NCBI RefSeq assembly: GCF_020564935.1
Contig: NZ_JAJCXB010000015.1
Location: 1 to 64,000 of the forward strand
Source of the DNA: Streptomyces pinistramenti
GTDB taxonomy: Bacteria > Actinomycetota > Actinomycetes > Streptomycetales > Streptomycetaceae
DNA length: 64,000 nucleotides
Direction of reading: 5' to 3'
The position numbers and the translations under genes were made by a program. Each line of letters begins with the position of its first letter. Positions within the stretch are counted from its first letter, which is position 1. Positions 26,267-41,180 of the stretch are shown in pieces. The notes beneath the pieces were generated by a model. The model did no database searches. It saw only the letters and a list, made by a program, of their open reading frames with translations, and was not told the origin of the DNA.

Positions 26267-27895
26267 TTACTTGACGGCGACGCCGTTCCACGCGGCCTCG
26301 ACACCCTTGACCTCGTCGCTGCCGGCCTTGTACAGGTCGGTGGCGGCCTTGACGGTCGCCTCGCGGGCGGCCTTGTAGTCGGTGTTCGAGGTCATGTACT
26401 CGGTCAGGGCCTTGAACCAGATCTTCTCGGCCTTGTCCCGGCCGATGCCGGTGACCTTCGAGCCGTCGGCCGTCGGGCTGTCGTACTTCACGCCGTTGAT
26501 CTCCTTCGCGCCGCTGCCCTCGGACAGCAGGTAGAAGAAGTGGTTGGCGACGCCCGAGGAGTAGTGCGGGTCGAGGTTGCCGGTGTTGGAGTCCCAGTTG
26601 TCCTGCGACTGGCCGTCCTTGGAGGGCTTGTCCATGTAGCGCAGCGGGGTGCCGTCACCGTTGATGTTGATCTTCTCGCCGATGAGGTAGTCGCCCGGGT
26701 CGGACTTGTTGTTCGCGTAGAACTCGACCGCGGTGCCGAAGATGTCCGATGTGCCCTCGTTGAGGCCGCCGGACTCACCGCTGTAGGTGAGGTTGGCGGT
26801 GGCGGAGGTGACACCGTGCGACATCTCGTGCGCCGCGACGTCGATGGCGGTGAGCGGGGCCTTGTTGCCCTCGCCGTCGCCGTACGTCATGCAGAAGCAG
26901 CTGTCGTCCCAGAAGGCGTTGACGTAGTTGTTGCCGTAGTGGACGCGCGAGGAGGCACCCTTGCCGTCGCCCTTGATGCCGGTGCGGCCGTGCACCTCCT
27001 TGTAGTAGTCCCAGGTCTCGGCCGCGCCGTAGTGCGCGTCGACGGCCGCGGTCTGCGGGTCGTCGGGCTTGCCGGTGCCCCAGTTGTCGTCGTCGTCCGT
27101 GAACGCCTTGCCCTCGCCGTCCTCGGCGTTTTCGAGGTTGGTGGTCTTGTGACCGCCGCGGCCGCCGTCGGTCAGCGTGTAGCCGCTGCCTTCCTTGGTG
27201 GTGCCGAGGTCAACGGTGCCGCTGAACTCGCTCTCGCCCTTGCCGGTGTGGATCTCGTCGTACTGGAACAGCTTCTTGCCGCTGTTGGCGTCGGTGATGA
27301 CGTGCAGCCGGCTGGGGGTGCCGTCCTTCTGCACGCCCTTGACGACCGTGTCGTACGCCAGGACCGGCGAACCGGACGCGGCCCAGACGACCTTCTTCGC
27401 GGCCTGCGCGCCGGTCTGCTTCGCGCTGATCGACTTGGCGGCTGCGCCCTGCGCGCTCTTCGCGGCGGCGGACGCGGCGATCTTCGGCGTGAGGGAGGCG
27501 ACCTTGATGGTCTTGTCGGTCGACTTGGTGGTGCTCTTGACGGCGCCGCCCTTGGCGGTGTGCACGACCATGTCGCCGCCCAGCACCGGCAGTCCGGCGT
27601 AGGTGCGGTCGAAGCGGGTGTGGGTGGTGCCGTCGGCGTCCTTGATGACGTCCTTGACGACCAGCTTCTCCTGCGAGCCCAGGCCCAGGTCCTTCGCGGT
27701 CTGCGCCTTGGTCGCGCTCGCGTCGCGGAGCAGCTCGGCGCGGTGCGACGCGGTGAGCTTCAGGGGGGCGCCGCTCCGGTCGGTCTGCGCGGGCGAGGCG
27801 CCTGCGGTGCCGGCGGTGATGCCGGCGGCGAGCAGGGCCGCGGCGGCGACGACGGCACCGGTAACGCGGGTCTTACGGGATATGCGGGGGGTCAC
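26267..27895 (-). CDS. Secreted neutral zinc metalloprotease, M4 (thermolysin) family
   Basis: A 542-residue extracellular protease made as a preproenzyme. The signal peptide (about 1-34: RISRKTRV, hydrophobic core, AGTAGASPA) is followed by an FTP propeptide (about 45-95), a PepSY-like segment (about 160-215) and the catalytic domain. Zinc ligands are His356 and His360 in HEMSH, with catalytic Glu357, and Glu380 in GGLNEGTSD. A conserved CFC (333-335) is present. GTG 27895 follows AAGGAG; earlier starts would bury the signal peptide. It ends without an added C-terminal domain, unlike its tandem paralogue just upstream, with which it shares long identical stretches around the active site. Confidence 0.94.
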   Translation of the reverse strand: MTPRISRKTRVTGAVVAAAALLAAGITAGTAGASPAQTDRSGAPLKLTASHRAELLRDASATKAQTAKDLGLGSQEKLVVKDVIKDADGTTHTRFDRTYAGLPVLGGDMVVHTAKGGAVKSTTKSTDKTIKVASLTPKIAASAAAKSAQGAAAKSISAKQTGAQAAKKVVWAASGSPVLAYDTVVKGVQKDGTPSRLHVITDANSGKKLFQYDEIHTGKGESEFSGTVDLGTTKEGSGYTLTDGGRGGHKTTNLENAEDGEGKAFTDDDDNWGTGKPDDPQTAAVDAHYGAAETWDYYKEVHGRTGIKGDGKGASSRVHYGNNYVNAFWDDSCFCMTYGDGEGNKAPLTAIDVAAHEMSHGVTSATANLTYSGESGGLNEGTSDIFGTAVEFYANNKSDPGDYLIGEKININGDGTPLRYMDKPSKDGQSQDNWDSNTGNLDPHYSSGVANHFFYLLSEGSGAKEINGVKYDSPTADGSKVTGIGRDKAEKIWFKALTEYMTSNTDYKAAREATVKAATDLYKAGSDEVKGVEAAWNGVAVK

Positions 27896-27909
27896 GCGTG
27901 CTCCTTCAA

Positions 27910-27935
27910 CTTTGCCAAGTGGTGGGGGTGCAAAG
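27910..27935. promoter_or_regulatory. CTTTGC-N14-GCAAAG inverted repeat in the protease leader
   Basis: Six-base inverted arms start directly upstream of the AAGGAG ribosome binding site of the first M4 protease gene. The repeat could fold in the mRNA or bind a regulator, but may be chance. The rest of the 27896-28139 spacer must hold the promoter and shows no clear -35/-10 pair. Confidence 0.25.
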
Positions 27936-28139
27936 CGATGCGGGTGTGACGTGCGTCGGGAAGACTGCCATTCGAACGCGTGCATGTCAGGAGGGCGCGC
28001 GAAGGTTGGCCGAAATTCGTCCGTAGAGAGAAGATCGCTGTCCGTATAACGGAGTCGGGCGCCGCCCCCGATGCTCCGGGAGCGACGCCCAACTCGCTGT
28101 TTGTGCAGTTCAGTTGTGGTGCGATGGCGATCGGGGGTC

Positions 28140-28166
28140 AGGAGTGCCACACCGAAGTGGCCTCCT
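28140..28166 (-). terminator. Terminator of the second M4 protease gene
   Basis: AGGAGTGCCAC (28140-28150) pairs with GTGGCCTCCT (28157-28166), leaving one bulged base, around a 6-base loop. It starts 16 bases past the stop codon. Confidence 0.65.
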
Positions 28167-28181
28167 GGTGCCGTCGCACCG

Positions 28182-30206
28182 TCAGAACGTCAGCTTCCAG
28201 CCGTTGAGCGTGCCGGAGTCGTAGCGGTACAGGTCCTGCACCCGCAGCTTCCAGGTGCCGGCGGCGGCCTGTGACGAGGCGTCGACGGTGTAGGTCTGCT
28301 TGACGTCGGCGGCGCCGTCGGACGTGCTCGCGTTCTTCAGCCGGTAGCTCGAACCGTTCGGTGCGATCAGGTCGATGACCAGGTCACCGCGGTAGGAGTG
28401 GGTGATGTCCACCGACACCTTCAGGGCGTTGGGTGCCTTGCCGGTGTGGGTGACCGTGATCGGCGAGGTCACCGCCGCGCCGCCGTCCGGGATCCGGACC
28501 GCGCCGGTGCTCTCGTAGACCTTGTCGCCGCCGGGGTTGGTGCCGTCGTCGACCCTGGAGCCGACGTTCACCGCGGCCCAGGTGTTGGCGACGGTGTTGT
28601 ACGAGGCACTGCCCTGGCCGAACAGGTCGGCCGCGGCCTTCAGGGTGGCGGTACGGGCCGCCGCGTAGTTGGTGTTGGCGCTCATGTACTGGCTGAGCGC
28701 CTTGAACCACACCTTCTCCGCGTTGGCCCGCCCGATGCCGGGGACCGGCTTGTTGTCGTAGGTCGGGCTGTCGTAGTGGACGCCGTTGATGTCCTTGGCG
28801 CCGCTGCCCTCGGACAGCAGGTAGAAGAAGTGGTTGGCGACGCCGGACGAGTAGTGCACGTCCTTGTTGCCGACGCTGCTCGACCAGTAGTCGGCCGATG
28901 CGCCGTCCTTGGACGGCTTGTCCATGTAGCGCAGCGGGGTGCCGTCGCCGTTGATGTCGATCTTCTCGCCGATGAGGTAGTCGCCCGGGTCCTCGGCGGT
29001 GTTGGAGTAGAACTCCACGGCCGTGCCGAAGATGTCGGACGTCGCCTCGTTCAGGCCGCCGGACTCACCGCTGTAGATGAGCCCCGCGGTCGCCGCGGTC
29101 ACGCCGTGCGACATCTCGTGGCCCGCCACGTCCAGCGCGGTCAGCGGACGGGCGTTGCCGCTGCCGTCGCCGTACGTCATGCAGAAGCAGCTGTCGTCCC
29201 AGAAGGCGTTGACGTAGCTGTTGCCGTAGTGGACACGGGAGTACGCCGCGACGCCGTCGCCGCGGATGCCGGTGCGGCCGTGCACGTTCTTGTAGTAGTC
29301 CCAGGTCTCGGCCGCGCCGTAGGCGGCGTCCACGGCGGCGGTCTGGGCGTTCTGCGGCGTGCCGTCGCCCCAGGTGTCGTCCGCGTCGGTGAAGAGGGTG
29401 CCGGTGCCGGACGAACCGTGGTTGAGGTTGTAGGTCTTGTGCCCGCCGCGGCCGTTGTCGGTCAGCGTGTACGAGGACCCCGAACCGGAGGTCCCCAGCG
29501 TGACCTTGCCGCTGTACTCGCTGTTGCCGATGCCGTTCTCGATGCCCTGGTACTGGAAGATCCGGGCGCCGGTGGTGGCATCGGTGATGACGTGCAGCGC
29601 GTTGGGCGTGCCGTCGTCCTGGAGCCCGCCGACCACGGTCTCGTACGCGAGCCGCGGGGTGCCGTCGGCGGCCCAGACGACCTTGCGCGGCGCCTTGTCG
29701 GCCTTGGTCTTCTCGGAGCCCTGCGCCTGCGCGGACTTGACGGCCTTGGACGCGGCGGCGGACGGCGTGACCTTCGCCGTCGTCGTCGGGACCGTCAGCT
29801 GCGCACGCAGCGGCTTGGTGACGCTCTTGACCGCGCCGGCCTTGCTCTCGTGCACGATCAGGTCGCCGCCGAGCACCGGCAGCCCGGCCCAGGTGCGTGC
29901 GTAGCGGGTGTGGGTGGTGCCGTCGGCGTCCTTCGAGACGTCCTTGACGAGCAGTTTCTCCTGGGCGCCGAGCTTGAGCTGCTCGGCCGTCGTCGCCGTG
30001 GCGGCGCCGGCGTCGCGTATCAACTTGCCGCGCTGGGACGGGGAGAGCGGGGCGGGCAGGGCGCCCGGGGCCGGCTTGGCGTGCGGGGTGCCGGGCTGCG
30101 GTGCGGCTGCCGTGCTGGTGCCGGCCTGTACGCCGACGGCCAGCATCGCCGTGACGGCGACGAGCGCGCCGGTCGCTGCGGCGCGCTGATGGGGGGTGCG
30201 TCTCAC
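28182..30206 (-). CDS. Secreted M4 metalloprotease with C-terminal P domain
   Basis: A 674-residue secreted protease, paralogous to the gene downstream. The signal peptide (about 1-35) is followed by an FTP propeptide (about 52-105), a PepSY-like region and the M4 catalytic domain with HEMSH (His363, Glu364, His367) and GGLNEATSD (Glu387). Residues about 560-674 form an extra jelly-roll of the proprotein-convertase P type (VRIPDGGAAVTSPITVTHTG, HSYRGDLVIDLIAPNGS, GTWKLRVQDLYRYDSGTLNGW), usually a stabilising or substrate-binding module that may be trimmed on maturation. GTG 30206 has GAAGGAG upstream. The two proteases probably arose by tandem duplication, with gain or loss of the P domain. 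Confidence 0.94.
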   Translation of the reverse strand: MRRTPHQRAAATGALVAVTAMLAVGVQAGTSTAAAPQPGTPHAKPAPGALPAPLSPSQRGKLIRDAGAATATTAEQLKLGAQEKLLVKDVSKDADGTTHTRYARTWAGLPVLGGDLIVHESKAGAVKSVTKPLRAQLTVPTTTAKVTPSAAASKAVKSAQAQGSEKTKADKAPRKVVWAADGTPRLAYETVVGGLQDDGTPNALHVITDATTGARIFQYQGIENGIGNSEYSGKVTLGTSGSGSSYTLTDNGRGGHKTYNLNHGSSGTGTLFTDADDTWGDGTPQNAQTAAVDAAYGAAETWDYYKNVHGRTGIRGDGVAAYSRVHYGNSYVNAFWDDSCFCMTYGDGSGNARPLTALDVAGHEMSHGVTAATAGLIYSGESGGLNEATSDIFGTAVEFYSNTAEDPGDYLIGEKIDINGDGTPLRYMDKPSKDGASADYWSSSVGNKDVHYSSGVANHFFYLLSEGSGAKDINGVHYDSPTYDNKPVPGIGRANAEKVWFKALSQYMSANTNYAAARTATLKAAADLFGQGSASYNTVANTWAAVNVGSRVDDGTNPGGDKVYESTGAVRIPDGGAAVTSPITVTHTGKAPNALKVSVDITHSYRGDLVIDLIAPNGSSYRLKNASTSDGAADVKQTYTVDASSQAAAGTWKLRVQDLYRYDSGTLNGWKLTF

Positions 30207-30497: not shown

Positions 30498-32387
30498 TCA
30501 GGCGTCCGCCGCGGGCCGGTCACCGGCTCCGTGCCAGGAATGCCACAGGGCCGCGTAGGCGCCGCCGGCCGCCACGAGCGCGTCATGGGTGCCGAGTTCG
30601 GCCCGCCGGCCCGCCGCCATGACCGCCACCCGGTCCGCGTCGTGCGCGGTGTGCAGCCGGTGCGCGATGGCGATGACCGTACGGCCCGCCAGCACGGCGG
30701 CCAGCGCGCGCTCGGCGTGCCGGGCGGTCCGCGGATCCAGCAGCGCCGTCGCCTCGTCCAGGATCACCGTGTGCGGATCCGCCAACAGCACCCGCGCCAG
30801 GGCGAGTTGCTGGGACTGCGCACCGTCCGGGCGCAGCCCGCCGGGGCCCAGCTCGGTGTCCAGGCCCGCGGGCAGCCGCGCCGCCCAGTCCGCCCCGACG
30901 GTGGCGAGCGCGGCGTGCAGCTCGGCGTCGGCCGCGGCCGGTGCGCCGATCAGCAGATTCTCCCGGACCGTCCCCAGGAACACATGGTGCTCCTGAGTCA
31001 CCAGGACGACCTGCCGCCGCAGGACTTCGGGAGCCAGCTCGGCGACCGGCACCCCGCCGACCGTCACAGACCCGCCGCACGGCGCGTCGATCCCGGCGAG
31101 CAGCCTGCCCAGCGTGGACTTGCCCGCGCCGGAAGGGCCGACGAGCGCGAGCCGTTCGCCCGGCCGCACGCACAGATCGACCCCGCGCAGTACCTCGTCG
31201 CCAGGCCCGCCGGGATAGGCGTAGCGCACGCCGGTGACGTCGATGCGGCCGGTGGCACCGGGGGAACCGTGCGGTCCGTGGCGGTCGTTGCGGTGACCGT
31301 CGGCGGGGGAGGGCAGCGGGACCTGTGGGGCGGTACGGGGCGGAGCGGTCTCCGAGGCTCCTGTGCCGTCCGTGCCGTCCGTGGTTTCCGTGGCCGCGCC
31401 CAGCCCCTCCACCCGCGCGAACGCGGCGCCGCTGCTCTGGAGTTGCTCGACCCAGAGCAGGACGGTGTCCATCGGCGCCGACACCTGCCGCAGATACAGC
31501 GCGGCCGACACCACCACCCCCAGGCTCACCATCCCGGCGCCGTGCAGCGCCCCGCCCACCAGCAGCACCGCGACGACCGGGACCGTGTACGAGACGTCCA
31601 CCGCGGGAAACACGACGCTGCGCAGGAACAGCGTCCGGATCCGCGTCCGCCGGCAGCGCTCGATGGCCTCCTGGCAGGCCGCCGCGCGGCGCTCCTGCAA
31701 CCCGAGCGCCTCGACGGTCCTGGCGCCCGCCGCCGTCGCCGCGAGCAGCTCGGCGAGCGCCGACTGCGCCGCACCCTCCGCCAGATACGCCTCGCGCGCC
31801 CGGCGCAGATACCAGCGGACCGCGAACCCACTGCCCAGCAGGCCCGCCCCGCACGCGCCGAGCAGCGGATCGAGCAGCACCACCGCACCGAGCAGGAACA
31901 GCACCTGGACCACGGCGACGGACACCTCGGGCGCCGCATCGCGCAGCGTCCTGCCGACGGTGGCGACATCCGTCGTCCCGCGAGCCGTCAGATCCCCGGT
32001 GCCCGCCCGCTCCACGGTCGCCGCGGGCAGCGCCAGCGCCCGGTCGACGAACTCCGTGCGCACCCGGTCCAGCGTCCGCTCGCCGAACCGGTGGCCGACG
32101 TAGCGCGCGTACCGCACCAGCACCAGCTGGGCCAGCGCGCAGCCCAGGATCACCAGCGCCGGCCGGTCCACCGCGCCGACGCCGCCGCCGGCCCGCACCG
32201 CGTCGACGATCCTGCCGAGCAGCCACGGCCCGGCCAGACCCGCGGCCGCGGCCAGCGCGTTCAGGGCGAGCAGCGCGGCGAAGGCACGGCCGTCCCGGCG
32301 GACCAGCCGGAGCGCGGCCCGCCCGGTCCTGCGCGGCCCGGCCACCGGCAGCGCGCCGTCCGGTACGGCCTTGGGGTCTCCGGTCAC
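30498..32387 (-). CDS. ABC exporter subunit with active ATP site
   Basis: A 629-residue half-transporter: an ABC type I exporter membrane domain (about 25-320, six helices) fused to an ATPase domain. Walker A GPSGAGKST (Lys423), Q-loop Gln465, Walker B VILDEATALLD (Asp544, Glu545) and H-loop His576 are all intact. The signature motif is not: LSGGQ is replaced by PDGAQ (520-524). The upstream subunit has the opposite defects, so together they can form exactly one competent ATP site. GTG 32387 overlaps the upstream stop by 4 bases (GTGA) and follows GAGGAGG. A Thr/Gly/His-rich linker (about 330-375) joins the domains. Substrate unknown. Confidence 0.9.
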   Translation of the reverse strand: MTGDPKAVPDGALPVAGPRRTGRAALRLVRRDGRAFAALLALNALAAAAGLAGPWLLGRIVDAVRAGGGVGAVDRPALVILGCALAQLVLVRYARYVGHRFGERTLDRVRTEFVDRALALPAATVERAGTGDLTARGTTDVATVGRTLRDAAPEVSVAVVQVLFLLGAVVLLDPLLGACGAGLLGSGFAVRWYLRRAREAYLAEGAAQSALAELLAATAAGARTVEALGLQERRAAACQEAIERCRRTRIRTLFLRSVVFPAVDVSYTVPVVAVLLVGGALHGAGMVSLGVVVSAALYLRQVSAPMDTVLLWVEQLQSSGAAFARVEGLGAATETTDGTDGTGASETAPPRTAPQVPLPSPADGHRNDRHGPHGSPGATGRIDVTGVRYAYPGGPGDEVLRGVDLCVRPGERLALVGPSGAGKSTLGRLLAGIDAPCGGSVTVGGVPVAELAPEVLRRQVVLVTQEHHVFLGTVRENLLIGAPAAADAELHAALATVGADWAARLPAGLDTELGPGGLRPDGAQSQQLALARVLLADPHTVILDEATALLDPRTARHAERALAAVLAGRTVIAIAHRLHTAHDADRVAVMAAGRRAELGTHDALVAAGGAYAALWHSWHGAGDRPAADA

Positions 32388-34243
32388 CGGGCCTCCTCGG
32401 CCCGTACGCCGTCCACGGCCGGGCCCGCTTCCCGGCCGTCGTCCTCCGGTACGCCTACCTGGCCACTCCGGAGGCCCGCGGCCCCCGGGTCGTCCTCGCC
32501 GCGCGCCACCAGCCTGCGGTATTCCGGCTCCGACGCGAGGAGTTGACGGTGGCTGCCGACCGCCGCGACCCGGCCGCCGACCAGGTGGTACACGGTGTCG
32601 GCGCGGTCGAGCAGCAGCGGCGATGTGCTGGTGACGACGGTCGTGCGGCCCGACCTGGCGGCGTGCAGCCGGGCGGCGACGGCCGCTTCGGTGTGCGCGT
32701 CGACGGCCGATGCCGGTTCCACGGCGAGCAGCACCTCGGGGTCGGCCAGCAGCGCCCGCACCAGCCGGACCCGCTGCCGCTGCCCGCCCGAGAGATTGCG
32801 GCCGCCCGCCGCCACCTGCGCAGTCAGCCCGTCCGGCAGCCCGCGCACGATGTCGTCGGCGACGGCGGTGTGCAGGGCACGGTCCACGGCCGCCGCGTCC
32901 CGCTCGCGCCGTCCGGAGATCACCTCGCGCAGCGTGCCGGCGAACAGCTCCGCCTCGTTGTCGGCGACCAGGATCCGCTCCCGCAGCCGCGCGAGGCCGA
33001 TGCTGTCGAGACGTACCGTGCCCCAGGTGGCGGCCGAGTCCGCGAATCCGCCGAGCCGGTCGATGACCGCGGCCGCATCGGCGGGCCGGTCCGATGCCAG
33101 CGCGGTGAGTGCCCCGGGCACCACCTCGACACCGGACTCCGGATCGTGCAGTGCGGACGGCACCGCGGGGCCGTCCGCCGCGCTGCGGCCGGGCCCGCCG
33201 TCGGCCGGCGGCTCCAGGTCCAGGAAGCGCGTCACGCGGCGGGCGGCGACCAGGCCCCGGGTGACGTCGTAACCCCCTTCGATGAGGAACGACACCGGCG
33301 CCACCAGTGCCGCCGTATAGCCGTACACCGCCACCAACTCGCCCACGCTGAGCGTGCCTTGGGCCGCCATCCGGGCCGCGAGCCAGGCCACGGCGGCGAG
33401 GAACAGGGTCGGCAGGCCCACTCCGAGCGCCTGGATCCAGCTGGTCACCGCGCCGACCCGGTACCCCTCGGCGCGCAGCGCGTCCGACTCCCTGCGGTAC
33501 CGCTCGGCGAACGCCTCCTTGCCGCCGAGGCCGCTCAGCACCCGCAGGCCGCCGACCAGGTCCGTCAGCCGCGCGGCAAGACCGCTCTGACGCTCGCGGT
33601 AGCGGGACTCGGCGCCCTGCAACCGCCCCAGCAGCGGCCCCACCAGCACCGCGAGCAGCGGCACACCCAGCAGCACCAGCGCGGCGAGCAGCCCCGACAC
33701 CGGCAGCAGCAGGGCCGCCACCACCCCGTACGCGAGGACGGCGCCGACGCCGGGGCCGGTGAGCGTCAGCGTCTGACTGATCACGGCGACATCCCCGATG
33801 CCGATCGTGACCACCTCACCCGCCGTCACACTCCGCGGCAGCGCGGCCCCCAGCCGCAGCGTGTGCGCGACGACGACCCGCACCGTACGGAAGGTGGCGT
33901 CCATCCGGATCCGGGTCATGGTGCGGTGCCGCATGATCGCGAGGAAGGCATTCAGCACCCCGGAGGCCAGCAGGACGCCGCTCCAGCCGAGCAGCGGCCC
34001 CGTCCGGCCCGGGGCCAGGCCCTCGTCGATGGCGCGGGAGAGCACGTACGGCGGCACCATCAGCCCGACCATCCACAGGCTGCCGAACGTCGCACCGGCG
34101 GCGACCCGGCGCAGCTGGCTACGGGTCAGCCACCACAGATAGCGCGCGGGGCCGCGACGGTCCGGCACGCCGGGGCCCGCCGTCCCACGGCCGGATGCGG
34201 CCGGCTCCACCGCGTCCCACAGGTCCGAAGCAGGGGCGCACAT
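32384..34243 (-). CDS. ABC exporter subunit with degenerate ATPase domain
   Basis: A 619-residue half-transporter with an exporter-type membrane domain (about 40-325) and an ATPase-like domain that has lost its nucleotide-handling residues. Where Walker A should be there is ASDRPADAA (383-391), with no P-loop lysine. The Q-loop reads ILVADNEAELF without glutamine, Walker B is LLAVEPASAVD with Val in place of the magnesium Asp, and the H-loop histidine is replaced (VVTSTSPL). The signature NLSGGQRQR (483-491) is perfect. Spacing between motifs is normal, so this is not a frameshift. It is expected to work only as a heterodimer with the overlapping downstream gene. Confidence 0.9.
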   Translation of the reverse strand: MCAPASDLWDAVEPAASGRGTAGPGVPDRRGPARYLWWLTRSQLRRVAAGATFGSLWMVGLMVPPYVLSRAIDEGLAPGRTGPLLGWSGVLLASGVLNAFLAIMRHRTMTRIRMDATFRTVRVVVAHTLRLGAALPRSVTAGEVVTIGIGDVAVISQTLTLTGPGVGAVLAYGVVAALLLPVSGLLAALVLLGVPLLAVLVGPLLGRLQGAESRYRERQSGLAARLTDLVGGLRVLSGLGGKEAFAERYRRESDALRAEGYRVGAVTSWIQALGVGLPTLFLAAVAWLAARMAAQGTLSVGELVAVYGYTAALVAPVSFLIEGGYDVTRGLVAARRVTRFLDLEPPADGGPGRSAADGPAVPSALHDPESGVEVVPGALTALASDRPADAAAVIDRLGGFADSAATWGTVRLDSIGLARLRERILVADNEAELFAGTLREVISGRRERDAAAVDRALHTAVADDIVRGLPDGLTAQVAAGGRNLSGGQRQRVRLVRALLADPEVLLAVEPASAVDAHTEAAVAARLHAARSGRTTVVTSTSPLLLDRADTVYHLVGGRVAAVGSHRQLLASEPEYRRLVARGEDDPGAAGLRSGQVGVPEDDGREAGPAVDGVRAEEAR

Positions 34244-34285: not shown

Positions 34286-35455
34286 TCAGCGCCTGACGGC
34301 CCGCAGAATCACGAACTTCGGGTCGGACGCGACCACTTCGCAGTTGCCGAAGAGACGGCGCAGCCGTACGTGATAGCCGAGGTGGCGGTTGCCGATGACC
34401 CACAGCTCGCCGCCGGGGCGCAGCGCGGCGCGCGCCCCGCCGAACATGCTGCGGGCGGTCGCGTCGGACGTCGCGCGATGGCTGTGGAACGGCGGATTGT
34501 TGAGCACCAGGTCCACCGAACCGGCCGGCACCTGCGACAGCGCGTCGCCGACGACGAACTCGGCCTTCGCGGTGGCGGGCGCGTTCGCCGCGAAGGTGGC
34601 CCGCGCCGATGCCACGGCCGAGAACGACTCGTCGATGAAGGTCACTTCGGCCTCCGGATCGGCCAGCGCCATCGCGGTACCGACCACGCCGTTGCCGCAG
34701 CCGAGGTCCACCACCCGCCCGGCGCCCCGGCCCGCGGGCAGATGCTCCAGCAGGAAGCGGGTGCCGATGTCGAGACGGTCGGCGCAGAAGATACCGGCGT
34801 GATTGGTGACCGTACGGCCCGAGACGACCCCGACGTCCGCCGGCAGCGGATAGCTGCGCGGCCAGGAGCTGGAGGTGCGGGGGAGGCCGGGATCGGGTGT
34901 GCAGAAGATCAGCCGCGCCTTCTTGGCGGCGAGGGAGGTCCGGGTCGGGCCGAGGATCTGCTCGAACAGCTTCAGGGTCGAGGTGTGGATCTCGGTGACC
35001 ATGCCCGCGCCGACGATGCGGGTGCCGGCGTGCACGGCGGGCGCCAGCCGGCGCAGCTGGTCCTCCAGCAGCGCGAGGCTCTTCGGCACGCGGACCAGCA
35101 GCAGGTCGATCCGCTCCGGCGGAGTGTCCAGCACGGAGTGCAGCCGTACCGCCTCCGGGTCGGCGCCGCTGCGCCGCAGATTCGCCACCGTCGCCCGCTG
35201 CGTGAGGTACGAGTCCGTGATCTGCACCGGGCGCCGGGCGGCCAGCGCGGTGACCAGGGCGCCCCACCGGTCGCCGAGGACGACGGTGGTGCCGGGGGAG
35301 CGGGGGGCGGCCTCGGGCTCGGTATCCGCCTCGGTCTCGGCGAGGTGCTGGAGCAGGTACGCGTCGGCGGCGTCCCAGGCGCGGAGCGTGTCGCGGGGGT
35401 CTTCGGGGAAGCGGGTGAGGTCGAACGCACCCCAGGACGTCGTGAAACGGTTCAT
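34286..35455 (-). CDS. RlmG/RsmC-like rRNA guanine-N2 methyltransferase
   Basis: A 389-residue SAM-dependent methyltransferase. An N-terminal degenerate methyltransferase-like domain (about 1-190) precedes the catalytic Rossmann domain with VVDLGCGNGVVGTAMAL (motif I, about 236-252), FIDESFSAV, VVGDAL and the base-amino-methylating motif NNPPFH. This duplicated architecture and NPPFH motif are typical of RlmG and RsmC, which methylate guanine N2 in 23S or 16S rRNA. Which guanine is targeted cannot be decided here. It lies 42 bases upstream of the exporter pair and may share its transcript. Confidence 0.87.
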   Translation of the reverse strand: MNRFTTSWGAFDLTRFPEDPRDTLRAWDAADAYLLQHLAETEADTEPEAAPRSPGTTVVLGDRWGALVTALAARRPVQITDSYLTQRATVANLRRSGADPEAVRLHSVLDTPPERIDLLLVRVPKSLALLEDQLRRLAPAVHAGTRIVGAGMVTEIHTSTLKLFEQILGPTRTSLAAKKARLIFCTPDPGLPRTSSSWPRSYPLPADVGVVSGRTVTNHAGIFCADRLDIGTRFLLEHLPAGRGAGRVVDLGCGNGVVGTAMALADPEAEVTFIDESFSAVASARATFAANAPATAKAEFVVGDALSQVPAGSVDLVLNNPPFHSHRATSDATARSMFGGARAALRPGGELWVIGNRHLGYHVRLRRLFGNCEVVASDPKFVILRAVRR

Positions 35456-35590
35456 CGTGGGCTCAGGCTAGCCGAGAGCGGGCAGGGCACGCGGCGGGGC
35501 CGCCGGGCCACCGGCCGCCCGAGCGGCGGTTACCGCGGGTGACCTGTGGTGCCCGCGTCGCGGGCCCGGCCGGAGTCGTGCCGCAGGGGC

Positions 35591-36250
35591 TCATTGCCGC
35601 TTTGGTTCATTGCCGCGTTGCGGCTGCGCCGCGGTGAGGGCGCGGACGACGAAGATGCCCGCCAACGCCGCGCCGACGACGGCCGCGTCACCGGCCAGGA
35701 GCAGCGGCGCACCCTCGTAGGCGCGTGCGATGACCTTGTCCGTCGAGTCCGCGTAGTTCGGGCCCAGCCCGCTCAGCCCGGCGAGCCACAGGCCCCACCA
35801 CCAGTTCACGGCGCGCGGCAGCCGCTCCCCGGGGGCGCTCGCGCGGTGGATGTCGGCGACGATGCCGCGGGGCACCCAAAGGTTCATGACGGGCACGATC
35901 CAGCCTGCGTAGACCCATGGCCAGGCGTAGCGCGGCGGCTGCCCCGAGAGGGCGCGGGCGTTGTCCCGTACGCGCCACAGCCAGGCCAGGAAGGCAATCG
36001 CGCAGAGCGCCGTGGCCGCGTCTCCCAGGGCGCTGACGAGGTGGTAGGCGTTCTCCAGGGCGGTCAGCGGGCGGTGCCTGCCGTCGCCCTGGTCCGGCGG
36101 CCCGGAAGCGGGCATCCCGGACCTGGCGAGCTGGAACTGCCACAGTCCTCGGGCCACCCAGGCGGCGGCTGCGAGGGCGAGGGCGGCGACGGCGCAGCGG
36201 GCGGCTCCGCGCACCGGGCGCAGGGAGGGCGACGCTATGTGATCGTTCAC
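35591..36250 (-). CDS. DUF4328 membrane protein
   Basis: A 219-residue integral membrane protein with about four helices (near 20-40, 75-98, 110-135 and 185-207). It carries the DUF4328 pattern: RDNARALSG, RYAWPWVYAGWIVPVMNLWVPRGIVADIHRAS and WWWGLWLAG. The family is widespread in Streptomyces and without a defined function. The GTG at 36250 is chosen from the family-like N-terminus; the ribosome binding site is weak. It is divergent from the DUF899 gene. Confidence 0.78.
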   Translation of the reverse strand: MNDHIASPSLRPVRGAARCAVAALALAAAAWVARGLWQFQLARSGMPASGPPDQGDGRHRPLTALENAYHLVSALGDAATALCAIAFLAWLWRVRDNARALSGQPPRYAWPWVYAGWIVPVMNLWVPRGIVADIHRASAPGERLPRAVNWWWGLWLAGLSGLGPNYADSTDKVIARAYEGAPLLLAGDAAVVGAALAGIFVVRALTAAQPQRGNEPKRQ

Positions 36251-36571
36251 CCGGGCATCCTGGCGCACGGAAGGCCGCGGATGCCAGGCAGGGCTGACGC
36301 AGCCGGCCCATCGGCCGGTTGGTCTGCGTTCGGCTGGAGTGGTCAACTTGCTTGCGGTACCCGTCACGTGATCCTGAGTCATATGAAACTCTGCGGCCGG
36401 CTTCCGGTGTCCGGTGCACCCGGTCCTCCCTGACCTCCCGGCCCACTCGCGGATCGGCACACCGGACGGCCTCCGGTTCAACTGTCGGCGGGCCTCGGAG
36501 CCGCCATAGACTTGAGGGGCTGGTCCGGGGGCACGGGGACCGGAGGGGGACGGCTGCCCCAGGAGGACGCG
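36251..36571. other. Divergent intergenic region, DUF4328 and DUF899 genes
   Basis: This 321-base spacer must contain promoters for both neighbours. A GGTCAA (TTGACC on the minus strand) near 36343 could be a -35 element for the DUF4328 gene, and CATATGAAA near 36382 is the most AT-rich stretch. No RNA gene or repeat was recognised. Confidence 0.4.
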
Positions 36572-37255
36572 ATGTTGCGGCACACCAGACTGGCCGGGGA
36601 ATCGGCGGACTACCTTGCCGCCCGCGAAGAGCTGCGCCGGGCCGAGATCGACCTCATGCGCCACCGCGAGCAGGTCGCGGCCCGGCGGCGGGCACTTCCG
36701 CAGGGGCCGCCCGTCGACGACTACGTCTTCACCGAGGGCCCCGCCGACCTCGACGCAGGCGACACCCCGGTCCGCGAGGTCACCCTGAGCGGGCTGTTCA
36801 CCGCTCCGGACCGCCCGCTGATCGTCTACCACCTGATGTACGGCAAGCTGCAGACCGAGCCCTGCCCGATGTGCACCCTGTGGATCGACGGCTTCAACGG
36901 CATCGCCCACCACGTCGCCCGCAACGCCGACTTCGCCCTCGCCGCTGCCGCGGGCCCGCCCGCCCTGCGGCAGCACGCCCGCCACCGTGGCTGGCACCGG
37001 CTACGGCTCCTGAGCTGCGGCGACAGCACGTTCAAGTACGACCTGGGCAGCGAGGACAAGGACGGCGAGCAGGACTCCGCCGTCTCCGTCTTCACCCGCG
37101 ACGGCGACGGCACGGTCCGCCATCGCTACTCCGCCCACCCGCGCCTGGCCGACGACATCGGTGAGCGCGGCATCGACCTCCTGGCCCCCGTCTGGCACCT
37201 CCTCGACCTGACCCCGCAGGGCCGCGGAGACTGGTACCCGAACCTCGGCCACTGA
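36572..37255 (+). CDS. DUF899 family thioredoxin-fold protein
   Basis: A 227-residue cytoplasmic protein of the DUF899 family, predicted dithiol-disulfide-type proteins with a thioredoxin-like fold. The family opening is visible (REELRRAEIDLMRHREQVAARRRALPQG, then DYVFTEGP). The conserved cysteine pair is in TEPCPMCTLWIDGFNG (CxxC near residue 92). The C-terminal part has DLLAPVWHLLDLTPQGRG. ATG 36572 follows AGGAGGA. The substrate and redox partner are unknown, and nearby genes give no clue. Confidence 0.85.
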   Translation: MLRHTRLAGESADYLAAREELRRAEIDLMRHREQVAARRRALPQGPPVDDYVFTEGPADLDAGDTPVREVTLSGLFTAPDRPLIVYHLMYGKLQTEPCPMCTLWIDGFNGIAHHVARNADFALAAAAGPPALRQHARHRGWHRLRLLSCGDSTFKYDLGSEDKDGEQDSAVSVFTRDGDGTVRHRYSAHPRLADDIGERGIDLLAPVWHLLDLTPQGRGDWYPNLGH

Positions 37256-37329: not shown

Positions 37330-39231
37330 TCATCCCACGCTGTCCCGCCACACCCGGTGCAGCTCGGCGAAGCGGCCGCGGCCGGCGATCAGGGCGGCCG
37401 GGGGGCCGTCCTCCACGATCCGGCCGTCCGCCATGACCAGCACCCGGTCGGCGATCTCCACCGTCGACAGGCGGTGCGCGATCACCACGGACGTACGGCC
37501 GCGCAGCACGGTGTCCATGGCGCGCTGCACCGCCCGCTCGCCCGGAATGTCCAGCGAGCTGGTCGCCTCGTCCAGGATCAGCACGGCCGGGTCGGCCAGC
37601 AGGGCCCGTGCGAAGGCGACCAGCTGGCGCTGGCCCGCGGAGATCCGGCCGCCGCGCTTGCGGACGTCCGTGTCGTAACCGTCCGGCAGCGCGGCGATGA
37701 AGTCGTGCGCGCCGATCGCCTTGGCGGCCTGCTCGATCTCCGCGCGGCCGGCGTCGGGGCGGCCGATGGCGATGTTGTCGGCGACCGTGCCGGAGAACAG
37801 GAATGCCTCCTGGGTGACCATCACCACGCCACGGCGCAGCTCGGCGGTGGACAACTCCCGCAGGTCGACGCCGTCGAGCAGGACCCGGCCCTCGGTCGGG
37901 TCGTAGAAGCGGGCCAGCAGCTTGGCGAGGGTCGACTTGCCTGCGCCCGTCGATCCCACCACGGCGGTGGTTTCGCCCGCGGCCAGCGTCAGGCCGAGAC
38001 GGGGCAGCACCTCGCCGCCGGTGCGGTAGGCGAAGCGGACGTCCTCGAAGGTGACCGTGCGGCCCGGCCGGCCGGCGGCGACGGTCGGCAGCGAAATCGG
38101 CGCTTCCGGCTCGGGGACGGACGGGCGCTGGGCGAGCAGTCCCGCGATCTTGCCGAGCGAAGCCGCCGCCGACTCATAGGAGTTGAGGAACACGCCCAGC
38201 CGGTCGATGGGGTCGTACAGCCGGCGCAGATACAGCACGGACGCGGCCAGGACACCCAGCGGCAGACCGCCGGCCGCCACGCGGTACGCGCCCCACAGCA
38301 CGATCACGGCGACCGCGGTATTGGCCACCAGACCGGACAGGGCGACATACCGGGCCATCTCCAGGAGCGCGTCGCCGTTGACGCCTTGGTGCCGGCGGTT
38401 CAGCCGGGCGAACTCGGCTTCGTTGGACCGCTCCCGGCGGAACGCCTGCACCGGGCGGATGCCGTTGACCGTCTCCGTGAACTTCACGATGACGGTGGCG
38501 ATGGCCGAGGACTTCGTGCCGTACACCCGCCGGGAACGGCGCCGGAAGGACGCCACGAGAAGGTACAGCGGGCCCGCGGAGACGAGGGCAGCGGCGCCGG
38601 AGCGCCAGTCCAGGTACAGCAGCATCGCGGTGATGTAGACCGTCGACAGGCCGACCGAGATCAGCTCTTCCAGGCCCTCCTCAAGGAGTTCGCGCAGCGA
38701 CTCCACGTCCGTCGTCGCCCGGGAGATCAGCCGGCCGGAGGTGTAGCGCTCGTGGAAATCCAGGCTGAGCACCTGCGCGTGCCGGAAGATCCTGCCGCGC
38801 AGATCGAGCAGGACGTCCTGGCTGAGCCTGGCCGAACGCCGGACGAAGAGGTACTGGAGCCCGCCGGACGCCGCGGCGCACAGCGCGGCTGCCACCGCGA
38901 CGGCGATCAGCGGGCCGGAGTCCTGCGCGCGCAGAGCGGGCACCGCACGGTCGAGCGCGAACGCCACGAGCAGCGGCCCCGCCTGCACCGCGGCCTGCTG
39001 GAGCAGCAGCACCACGGCCGCCGCCCAGACGCGCCGGGTGTGCGGGGCGAGCAGCGAACGCAGCAGGGAGCGCGAGGCGCCATCGGGGGCCGGCAGCACG
39101 TCCCGCTCGAAGGCGTCGCCGGGCGCGGGCCCGGCCGCCGCGCCGGAGGGGCCGCCCGGTGCGGCGGCCGTCGCGGAGACCCGGCCGTCGTCGTGGCGCT
39201 CGGGCGGCAGGTCCGTGGAAGGTGCTGTCAT
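37330..39231 (-). CDS. ABC exporter subunit with canonical Walker motifs
   Basis: A 633-residue half-transporter. After a Pro/Ala-rich leader come the exporter membrane domain (about 55-345) and an ATPase domain with Walker A GSTGAGKST, Q-loop VMVTQEAFLFSG, Walker B VLILDEATSSLD and H-loop VVIAHRLST all intact. Its signature is slightly altered (ISAGQ). The partner gene upstream overlaps it by 4 bases (ATGA) and has LSGGQ, so the competent site is built from this subunit's Walker motifs and the partner's signature. The ATG at 39231 is set by that overlap. Multidrug or lipid export is usual for the family; the substrate here is unknown. Confidence 0.92.
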   Translation of the reverse strand: MTAPSTDLPPERHDDGRVSATAAAPGGPSGAAAGPAPGDAFERDVLPAPDGASRSLLRSLLAPHTRRVWAAAVVLLLQQAAVQAGPLLVAFALDRAVPALRAQDSGPLIAVAVAAALCAAASGGLQYLFVRRSARLSQDVLLDLRGRIFRHAQVLSLDFHERYTSGRLISRATTDVESLRELLEEGLEELISVGLSTVYITAMLLYLDWRSGAAALVSAGPLYLLVASFRRRSRRVYGTKSSAIATVIVKFTETVNGIRPVQAFRRERSNEAEFARLNRRHQGVNGDALLEMARYVALSGLVANTAVAVIVLWGAYRVAAGGLPLGVLAASVLYLRRLYDPIDRLGVFLNSYESAAASLGKIAGLLAQRPSVPEPEAPISLPTVAAGRPGRTVTFEDVRFAYRTGGEVLPRLGLTLAAGETTAVVGSTGAGKSTLAKLLARFYDPTEGRVLLDGVDLRELSTAELRRGVVMVTQEAFLFSGTVADNIAIGRPDAGRAEIEQAAKAIGAHDFIAALPDGYDTDVRKRGGRISAGQRQLVAFARALLADPAVLILDEATSSLDIPGERAVQRAMDTVLRGRTSVVIAHRLSTVEIADRVLVMADGRIVEDGPPAALIAGRGRFAELHRVWRDSVG

Positions 39232-41180
39232 CGGGTGTCGCCTCCGTCGGGCCGCGGTGTTACTCCGCCGGCCGGTGGCGGGCTCCCGACCGGCTCTGTC
39301 TCCCCGGCATCGGCCGGGCCCGGGGCCTCCTCCGCCCGGCGGGCCTCTTCGGCCGCAGGCGAGGCGCCGGACATCAGGGCGGCGTACTCGGGGTGGCTCC
39401 GCAGCAGTTCGTGGTGGGTGCCGACGGCGGTGATCCGGCCGCCGGACAGCAGCGCCACCCGGTCGGCGAGCAGGACCGTGGACGGGCGGTGCGCGACGAC
39501 CAGGGCGGTGGTGGTCGCCAGTACCGTGCGCAGCGCCGCCTCCACCTTCGCCTCGGTGTGCACGTCGAGCGCGGAGAGCGGGTCGTCGAGGATCAGGAAG
39601 CGGGGCCGGCCGGCCACGGCACGGGCCAGCGCGAGCCGCTGCCGCTGGCCGCCCGACAGGCTCAGCCCCTGCTCGCCGACCTGCGTGCCGGGGCCATCGG
39701 GCAGCGCGTCGACGAATCCGTCGGCCTGGGCCACCTCCAACGCGCGGCGCAGATCGGCCTCCTGGAGGTGCTCGCCGCCCATGAGGACGTTCTCCGCCGC
39801 GGTCGCCGAGAACAGCGTCGGCTCCTCGAACGCGACCGACACCAGGGCGCGGGCCTCCTCGCGGGTGAACGTGGTCAGGTCCCGCCCGTCGAGCGTGATC
39901 CGGCCCGCCGTGGCGTCGTACAGCCGCGGCACCAGGGCGGTGAGGGTGGTCTTCCCGCTGCCCGTCGTGCCGACCAGCGCCATCGTCTCGCCGGGCCTGA
40001 CGTGCAGATCGATGCCGCGCAGCGTCGGCGGTGCGTCCCTGGGCGCGTCGGGATACCGGAACTCGACCCCCGCGAACTCCAGCCCGCCCCCGCCGTCGCC
40101 CGCCGTGCGGCCGCGCGCCGTCTCCCCGGCCGCGGCGGCCGGCGCCCGCTCCGGTGCGTCGTCCGCCACCGGCTCGTCCAGCACCTCGAAGTACCGGTCG
40201 GTGGCGGTCGACGCTTCGTTGCTCATCGCCAGCAGGAAGCCGATCGAGTCCACCGGCCAGCGCAGCGCGAGCGCCGTCGACAGGAACGCGACGAGGGTTC
40301 CGGCCGAGAGGCCGCCGTGCGCCACCTGGACCGTGCCCAGCACCAGCGCGGCCCCGATCGCCAGCTCGGGGAGGAAGGTGATGGCTCCCCAGATCGCCGC
40401 CAGCAGCCGGGCCTTGTGGAGTTCGGTCGCCCGTAGCTCGTGGCTCAGCTGCCGGAAGGCGCGGGCCTGGCTGCGGTGGCGCCCGAAGCCCTTCACGACC
40501 CGGATGCCGAGCACGGACTCCTCGATCACCGTCGTCAGATCGCCGACCTGGTCCAGCGCCCGGCGGGCGGCGAGCGCGTACTTCGCCTCGAACACCGAGC
40601 ACACCACCATCAGCGGCAGCACCGGCGCCAGCAGGACCAGCCCGAGCCAGAACTGCTGCGCCAGCAGGATCGCGCAGCCCACCAGGATCGTGACGCTGTT
40701 GACCAGCAGGAACGTCAGCGGGAATGCCAGGAACATGCGCAGCATCTGGAGGTCGGTGGTGGCGCGGGAGAGGATCTGTCCCGAGGACCAGCGGTCGTGG
40801 AAGGCGACCGGAAGACGCTGGACGTGGCGGAACAGGGCCTCGCGCATGGACGCCTCGACCCGGGCCAGCGGCCGGGCCACCAGCCAGCGCCGCAGCCCGA
40901 ACAGGCCCGCCTCGGCGACCCCCAGCAGCAGCAGATATCCGCCGCCCAGCCACGCCCCGCCCGGATCCCCCTCCGCCACCGGGCCGTCCACCAGCCACTT
41001 CAGCACCAGCGGGATGACCAGCGAGATGCACGAGGCGACCACCGCCACCACCGAGGCGGCGGCCAGCCGCCCGCGCACCGGCCGGACGAACGGCCACAGC
41101 CGTAGCAGGGAACGCACGGCGGAGTGCCCGTCGGGCCCGCCGGACGGGGAACGCGTCGGTGTACTCGTTGCAGCAGCCAT
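39228..41180 (-). CDS. ABC exporter subunit with altered catalytic glutamate
   Basis: A 650-residue half-transporter with membrane domain (about 20-310) and ATPase domain. Walker A is GTTGSGKTT, the signature LSGGQRQR and the H-loop VVAHRPST are intact. Walker B reads FLILDDPLSALD, with Asp instead of the catalytic Glu, and the Q-loop glutamine is replaced (VSVAFEEPTLF). Such changes mark the degenerate-site subunit of heterodimeric exporters. ATG 41180 is the likely start although no strong ribosome binding site is seen. It is the first gene of the two-gene unit, divergent from the L,D-transpeptidase gene. Confidence 0.9.
   Translation of the reverse strand: MAAATSTPTRSPSGGPDGHSAVRSLLRLWPFVRPVRGRLAAASVVAVVASCISLVIPLVLKWLVDGPVAEGDPGGAWLGGGYLLLLGVAEAGLFGLRRWLVARPLARVEASMREALFRHVQRLPVAFHDRWSSGQILSRATTDLQMLRMFLAFPLTFLLVNSVTILVGCAILLAQQFWLGLVLLAPVLPLMVVCSVFEAKYALAARRALDQVGDLTTVIEESVLGIRVVKGFGRHRSQARAFRQLSHELRATELHKARLLAAIWGAITFLPELAIGAALVLGTVQVAHGGLSAGTLVAFLSTALALRWPVDSIGFLLAMSNEASTATDRYFEVLDEPVADDAPERAPAAAAGETARGRTAGDGGGGLEFAGVEFRYPDAPRDAPPTLRGIDLHVRPGETMALVGTTGSGKTTLTALVPRLYDATAGRITLDGRDLTTFTREEARALVSVAFEEPTLFSATAAENVLMGGEHLQEADLRRALEVAQADGFVDALPDGPGTQVGEQGLSLSGGQRQRLALARAVAGRPRFLILDDPLSALDVHTEAKVEAALRTVLATTTALVVAHRPSTVLLADRVALLSGGRITAVGTHHELLRSHPEYAALMSGASPAAEEARRAEEAPGPADAGETEPVGSPPPAGGVTPRPDGGDTR

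Follow-up and report, generated by a model that had tools for sequence, protein, structure and literature searches.

The 64,000-nucleotide stretch of Streptomyces pinistramenti DNA analysed here (contig NZ_JAJCXB010000015.1, positions 1 to 64,000; hereafter the window) encodes two half-transporters of the ATP-binding cassette (ABC) type, subunits A and B, that have lost complementary sets of nucleotide-binding motifs. The nucleotide-binding domain (NBD) of subunit A has no phosphate-binding loop (P-loop), and that of subunit B has no canonical signature motif. Our results confirm this observation, which was first made for this single pair, and extend it far beyond one genome. The family is a variant of the heterodimeric degenerate-site exporters. 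A P-loop-less exporter subunit appeared in none of the titles and abstract openings found in open-licence PubMed Central, a scope that does not establish its absence from print. We consider it likely that the two subunits assemble into an obligate heterodimer, an exporter that has only one ATP site.

Results

Subunits A (619 residues; 32384..34243) and B (629 residues; 30498..32387) are encoded by adjacent genes on the minus strand, whose open reading frames overlap by four bases (GTGA) comprising the start of B and the stop of A. The G+C content at third codon positions is 0.919 for both, as in real genes. Each protein matches PF00664 and PF00005 and thus has the layout of a half-exporter with a fused transmembrane domain (TMD) and NBD, although in A the match to ABC_tran (PF00005) is restricted to residues 417-511 and lies barely above the cut-off. 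Alignment bears out the original prediction that A lacks Walker A, the Q-loop Gln, the Walker B Asp and the H-loop His next to a perfect signature. On the minus strand, the Walker A columns hold a pseudo-P-loop, SDRPADAA (33071..33094), followed by the Q-loop region LVADNEAEL with Asn429 in place of Gln (32945..32971), the intact signature LSGGQRQR (32771..32794), the Walker B and D-loop region VLLAVEPASAVD with Val508 in place of Asp (32699..32734), and the H-loop region TSTSP with Thr540 in place of His (32618..32632). The claim that A keeps only LSGGQ is slightly too strong, since Glu509, which occupies the catalytic-Glu position, and the D-loop Asp515 are also retained; in addition, the A-loop, which the prediction had not considered, is missing. 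Next to the lost H-loop His, Ser541-Pro542 is invariant in an alignment of 50 rows, despite the loss of the ATP site.

The partner likewise conforms to its initial description. Subunit B has an intact Walker A (GPSGAGKST, 31113..31139), Q-loop (LVTQE), Walker B (VILDEAT, 30747..30767) and H-loop (AHR, 30657..30665), all on the minus strand, and carries PDGAQ at the signature position, within the sequence RPDGAQSQQ (30807..30833), for which the family consensus is approximately L[TDS][PG]AQAQQ. According to the excerpts of the literature cited here and below, an ATP site is built from the Walker side of one subunit and the signature of the other (PMC7756269), so that the losses in A and B fall on one and the same composite site; as judged by its motifs, the other composite site is complete.

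Sequences of A were collected from a scan of named genomes (28 loci, 25 of them used; the weak matches L065-L067 were left out), from relatives, from a survey of the class and from a selected set of individual loci, the surveys listing more matches than were fetched. The A-type rows numbered 166. Without the window duplicate (L001) and without the intact outgroup L176_A, 164 remained, which the exclusion of sequences of 450 residues or less and of near-copies reduced to 148 non-redundant rows: 25 from the named genomes, 122 from other genomes and that of the window. The second pair of the host, on contig C46, stands outside this set because its first-look score fell under the threshold. The survey of orthologues, named beforehand as the check that could overturn the prediction, found the Walker A Lys absent from all 148 A subunits, and 13 further homologues from across the phylum also lacked the motif. 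None of the 148 aligned rows has the H-loop His, two have the Q-loop Gln and 26 the Walker B Asp. By contrast, SGG and the D-loop Asp are invariant (148/148 each), with SGG followed by Gln in 147 rows and by Glu in one. The catalytic-Glu position is occupied by Glu in 122 and by Asp in 26 subunits. Walker B itself varies, reading DE across a widespread group of Streptomyces, for the most part VE in the group of the window, and HD, HE, QD or, once (L189), DE in a deep branch. In the former P-loop, 144 of the 148 subunits carry an acidic residue and 121 have Pro at the Gly4 column. Most rows (132) are gapped at the A-loop column, and the other 16 lack an aromatic residue there. Moreover, the stretch preceding the pseudo-P-loop has a median length of only 21 residues in A (19 to 29), compared with 36 in B, 33 in L176_A and 38 in C1, a subunit of another exporter pair in the window, which indicates that the A-loop hairpin is missing from A.

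Because the pattern recurs in 148 non-redundant A subunits, chance and sequencing error are excluded, and together with the substitution ratios reported below, this recurrence also rules out a local pseudogene. The only A-type homologues with a Walker A motif that we met (L176, L191, L195, L197, L198, L200, L202 and L203) belong to ordinary heterodimers with Asp in place of the catalytic Glu, and the seven that were placed in trees (all but L200, whose sequence was too short to include) fall outside the P-loop-less clade.

For B, 144 rows remained after the removal of near-copies, with the outgroups L176, L178 and L179, the duplicate L001 and the broken or short calls L041, L079, L156 and L159 set aside. 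The Walker A Lys is present in all 140 rows readable at this position, the other four being gapped there. Conversely, SGG occurs in none of the 83 rows that span Walker A to the H-loop, and SGGQ in none of the 112 readable signatures. At 142 of the 147 loci outside the window, the gene immediately downstream of A, in the same orientation, is B; at the five loci without a usable B, three sequences end too soon, one gene is split and one match falls below the score threshold. The Streptomyces endophytica record (L041, 8036-10434) has its B gene broken into two reading frames.

The origin of the family was traced with trees restricted to the transmembrane domains, which keeps the lost motifs from driving the grouping. 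Both are quick, midpoint-rooted trees whose support values come from the Shimodaira-Hasegawa-like approximate likelihood ratio test alone. In the first, the P-loop-less subunits make up one side of a single branch (90 of 110 rows, support 98). The second, computed under a mixture model with 31 of the 148 A rows and 13 new ones, again places them on one branch (44 of 76 rows, support 98.8). In this mixture-model tree, the A clade branches with the intact L176_A (support 98) and the B clade has L176_B as its sister (support 85). L176_A has the motifs of an ordinary degenerate-site subunit: a P-loop (GTTGAGKS), LSGGQ, a Q-loop and an H-loop that are both intact, and Asp where the catalytic Glu would stand. 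The placement on one branch, next to classical heterodimers, suggests that the family most likely arose from such a heterodimer through a single loss of the P-loop.

Constraint is uneven along A. Pairwise ratios of nonsynonymous to synonymous substitution rates (dN/dS; Nei-Gojobori method, 35 ortholog pairs of A) range from 0.12 to 0.46 in the TMD (median 0.26), from 0.17 to 0.58 in the NBD as a whole (median 0.30), from 0.09 to 0.94 between the pseudo-P-loop and the Q-loop (median 0.30) and from 0.11 to 1.36 in residues 523-583 (median 0.30; the maximum stems from one pair with a dS of 0.05). The segment from the X-loop to the D-loop has a median of 0.14 (0-0.41). Compared with the TMD, the P-loop-to-Q-loop and the C-terminal segments, it ranks lowest in dN/dS for 26 of the 35 pairs, and in dN for 33. 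This segment, which is the part that A lends to B, is thus under purifying selection.

Predicted structures point in the same direction. In the monomer model of B (mean predicted local distance difference test score, pLDDT, 87.2), strand 412-416 leads through a six-residue loop (417-422) into helix 423-430, whereas in the model of A (mean pLDDT 89.6), strand 379-384 and helix 387-397 are joined by a two-residue turn, and the two strands preceding the loop comprise three residues each instead of the eight each in B. The P-loop of A is therefore collapsed in the model, which contains no phosphate loop. In Foldseek searches with VIA-align, A matched chains of CydDC, TmrAB, MsRv1273c/72c, TM287/288 and others that scored close to one another, the best match being CydDC (Z 29.0, root-mean-square deviation 4.6 over 549 residues). 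Searches of solved structures by sequence gave 310 matches for A and 269 for B, of which 60 each were considered by name.

The A gene is widespread in actinobacteria but not universal. Matches were found in 51 of 61 relatives (E 1e-60), in 128 of 296 sampled genomes of the class (E 1e-50) and in 29 of 296 genomes of the phylum (E 1e-40), the last figure including some intact heterodimers. The annotation of the seven plasmid records that we looked at was uninformative. The second pair of the host (C46:286115-289983) has an A subunit of the same clade that also lacks Walker A; this paralogue (L002, 1327-3609) contains a low-complexity insert of about 100 residues between the pseudo-P-loop and the Q-loop.

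Discussion

We infer that A and B pair with each other, use one ATP per cycle, leave the second site empty and export a small molecule or peptide. ATP would bind to the A-loop, Walker A, Q-loop, Walker B and H-loop of B and be enclosed by the LSGGQ and D-loop of A, and its hydrolysis at this site would drive the switch between the inward- and outward-facing states. The opposite site, which has lost both of its halves (the P-loop and A-loop of A as well as the signature of B), would probably form a permanent, nucleotide-free protein contact that could take over the tethering achieved elsewhere by a tightly bound, unhydrolysed ATP. More broadly, and with somewhat less assurance, it appears probable that a large and ancient actinobacterial clade of ABC exporters runs on a single nucleotide, with one ATP site replaced by a nucleotide-free interface and one NBD kept only as a donor of LSGGQ and the D-loop.

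In current models, a degenerate site works through its bound ATP, which serves as a lasting glue between the NBDs (PMC7756269, PMC5216877, PMC8421411). If our interpretation is correct, the existence of a conserved and widespread family without a P-loop on one side would mean that the second nucleotide is dispensable for transport. Together with their P-loop-bearing sister heterodimers, these natural proteins would then provide a means to measure what that ATP contributes.

Several of our observations sit less comfortably with an empty second site in a pair that works as described above. In 63 of the 148 A subunits, the P-loop columns still contain basic residues (Arg in 61, Lys in two), albeit never at the column of the Walker Lys, and a fully empty site does not account for the acidic residue that all 148 retain at the catalytic-Glu position. 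Part of the A-loop hairpin persists in some deep members (L121, L123 and L167), and in this alignment the aromatic A-loop residue is already absent from the intact sister L176_A, so that loss of the A-loop need not mean loss of the nucleotide. In B, the D-loop Asp is replaced by Gly in six of 84 readable rows. Outside the X-loop-to-D-loop segment, the NBD of A is no more constrained than its TMD. Finally, outgroup branches are long in both trees, and the first came with a long-branch warning among the outgroups.

The conserved acid in particular raises the question of whether the second site might still have an unusual way of binding a nucleotide or some different ligand, for instance weakly or in a regulatory role, through the AQAQQ helix of B and the acidic residue of A. 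There is a precedent in the fungal transporter Pdr5, in which the Walker A Lys, Walker B Glu, H-loop His and signature are replaced (PMC7756269), and whose dead site nonetheless shows ATP (PMC8421411). However, the only Walker A change that the consulted part of the review names for Pdr5 is a Lys-to-Cys exchange, whereas A has neither the P-loop Lys nor a GxxGxGK motif and mostly no A-loop. The frequent Pro at the Gly4 column, the nearly ubiquitous acid in the P-loop columns and the missing phosphate loop in the model of A speak against such binding as well, and we regard it as unlikely.

It is far less plausible that A is decaying towards a pseudogene while B acts alone or with another half. 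The ATP-side elements of A do vary freely, and the second copy of the host has acquired the long insert mentioned above. Yet SGG and the D-loop Asp are invariant, dN/dS is low, and B adjoins A at 142 of the 142 loci where B was called. In addition, as no readable B carries SGGQ, B alone cannot form a complete canonical site, leaving this explanation barely credible. A further possibility is that the pair acts as an ATP-gated or ATP-regulated membrane protein in the manner of CFTR or SUR, in which one site would suffice without any pumping; SUR has a degenerate site, as CFTR does. That CFTR, a channel, has such a site (PMC7756269) lends this idea some substance, but the half-transporter layout of A and B, the predominance of exporters among the best structural matches listed and the biosynthetic-looking genes (read from sequence starts) that adjoin several loci make it very improbable.

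A and B are best compared with exporters that have one consensus and one degenerate site. TM287/288, BmrCD, TmrAB and MsRv1273c/72c likewise consist of fused TMD-NBD halves with this combination of sites, and Foldseek listed chains of all four among its best matches to A. Like them, A and B are two different halves encoded together, with one consensus site as far as motifs can tell, and in the quick TMD tree they share common descent with such heterodimers: in the sisters of the family, the A-type subunit retains Walker A and carries Asp instead of the catalytic Glu. However, the degenerate sites of TM287/288 (PMC5216877) and MsRv1273c/72c (PMC12038006) keep the P-loop and bind nucleotide, whereas in the A-B family Walker A, usually the A-loop and also the signature of the partner are gone (0/148 for the Walker A Lys; a two-residue turn in the model of A from the window). 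The earlier statement that both subunits of known heterodimers normally retain Walker A agrees with the literature cited here, in which even Pdr5 has ATP in its dead site (PMC8421411).

In motif pattern, Pdr5 and its fungal PDR relatives are the closest parallel. They show the same complementary loss around one site: NBD1 keeps its signature, but its Walker A Lys, its Walker B Glu and its H-loop are changed, and NBD2, canonical at these motifs, has LNVEQ for the signature (PMC7756269, PMC8421411). The architecture is different, however, as Pdr5 is a single NBD-TMD-NBD-TMD chain with each NBD before its TMD (PMC7756269), whereas A and B are separate TMD-NBD halves. Furthermore, Walker A of Pdr5 is altered by one residue and ATP was found in the inactive site (PMC8421411), whereas A has lost the whole P-loop. 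The Pdr5 subfamily has been called the most extreme case of asymmetry (PMC8421411).

Two further groups of exporters provide comparisons closer to hand. The nearby pair in the window (37330-39231 / 39228-41117) is a heterodimer in which one site counts as degenerate on the standard criterion (ILDD for ILDE) and which, unlike A and B, has Walker A, the H-loop and SGGQ or SAGQ in both halves; its subunit C1 has Glu at the Q-loop column. ABC genes next to a LanC-like gene in Streptomyces relatives, presumably RamAB-like, also encode half-exporters, one kind of which has a degenerate Walker B (LDD). A search of 61 genomes for LanC-like genes gave matches in 47, and four regions were fetched. By eye, the ABC halves in three of them (L180, L182 and L183) contain G..G.GK[ST], and the fourth (L181) gave no ABC match. 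As these halves carry Walker A and A does not, we rejected the assignment of A to the lanthipeptide exporters of the RamAB type. The three LanC-like matches of the host lie on contigs other than that of the window (C41).

Genomic neighbourhood

Directly downstream of B, the window contains two tandem genes for M4 thermolysin-like peptidases (26267-30206), one of them with a P-domain, as identified by Pfam. Sequence clustering showed that A and B are followed by two same-strand genes of this M4 peptidase cluster in the window and at 10 of the 25 named-genome loci. Among the 25, the sequences of three (L046, L050 and L051) stop within B or no more than about 300 bases from it. We take this arrangement as co-location only and claim no mechanism. 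Other A-B loci adjoin genes that look biosynthetic from the starts of their sequences. Between the two exporter pairs of the window (34286-37255) lie genes for an MTS-type methyltransferase, a DUF4328 protein and a DUF899 protein.

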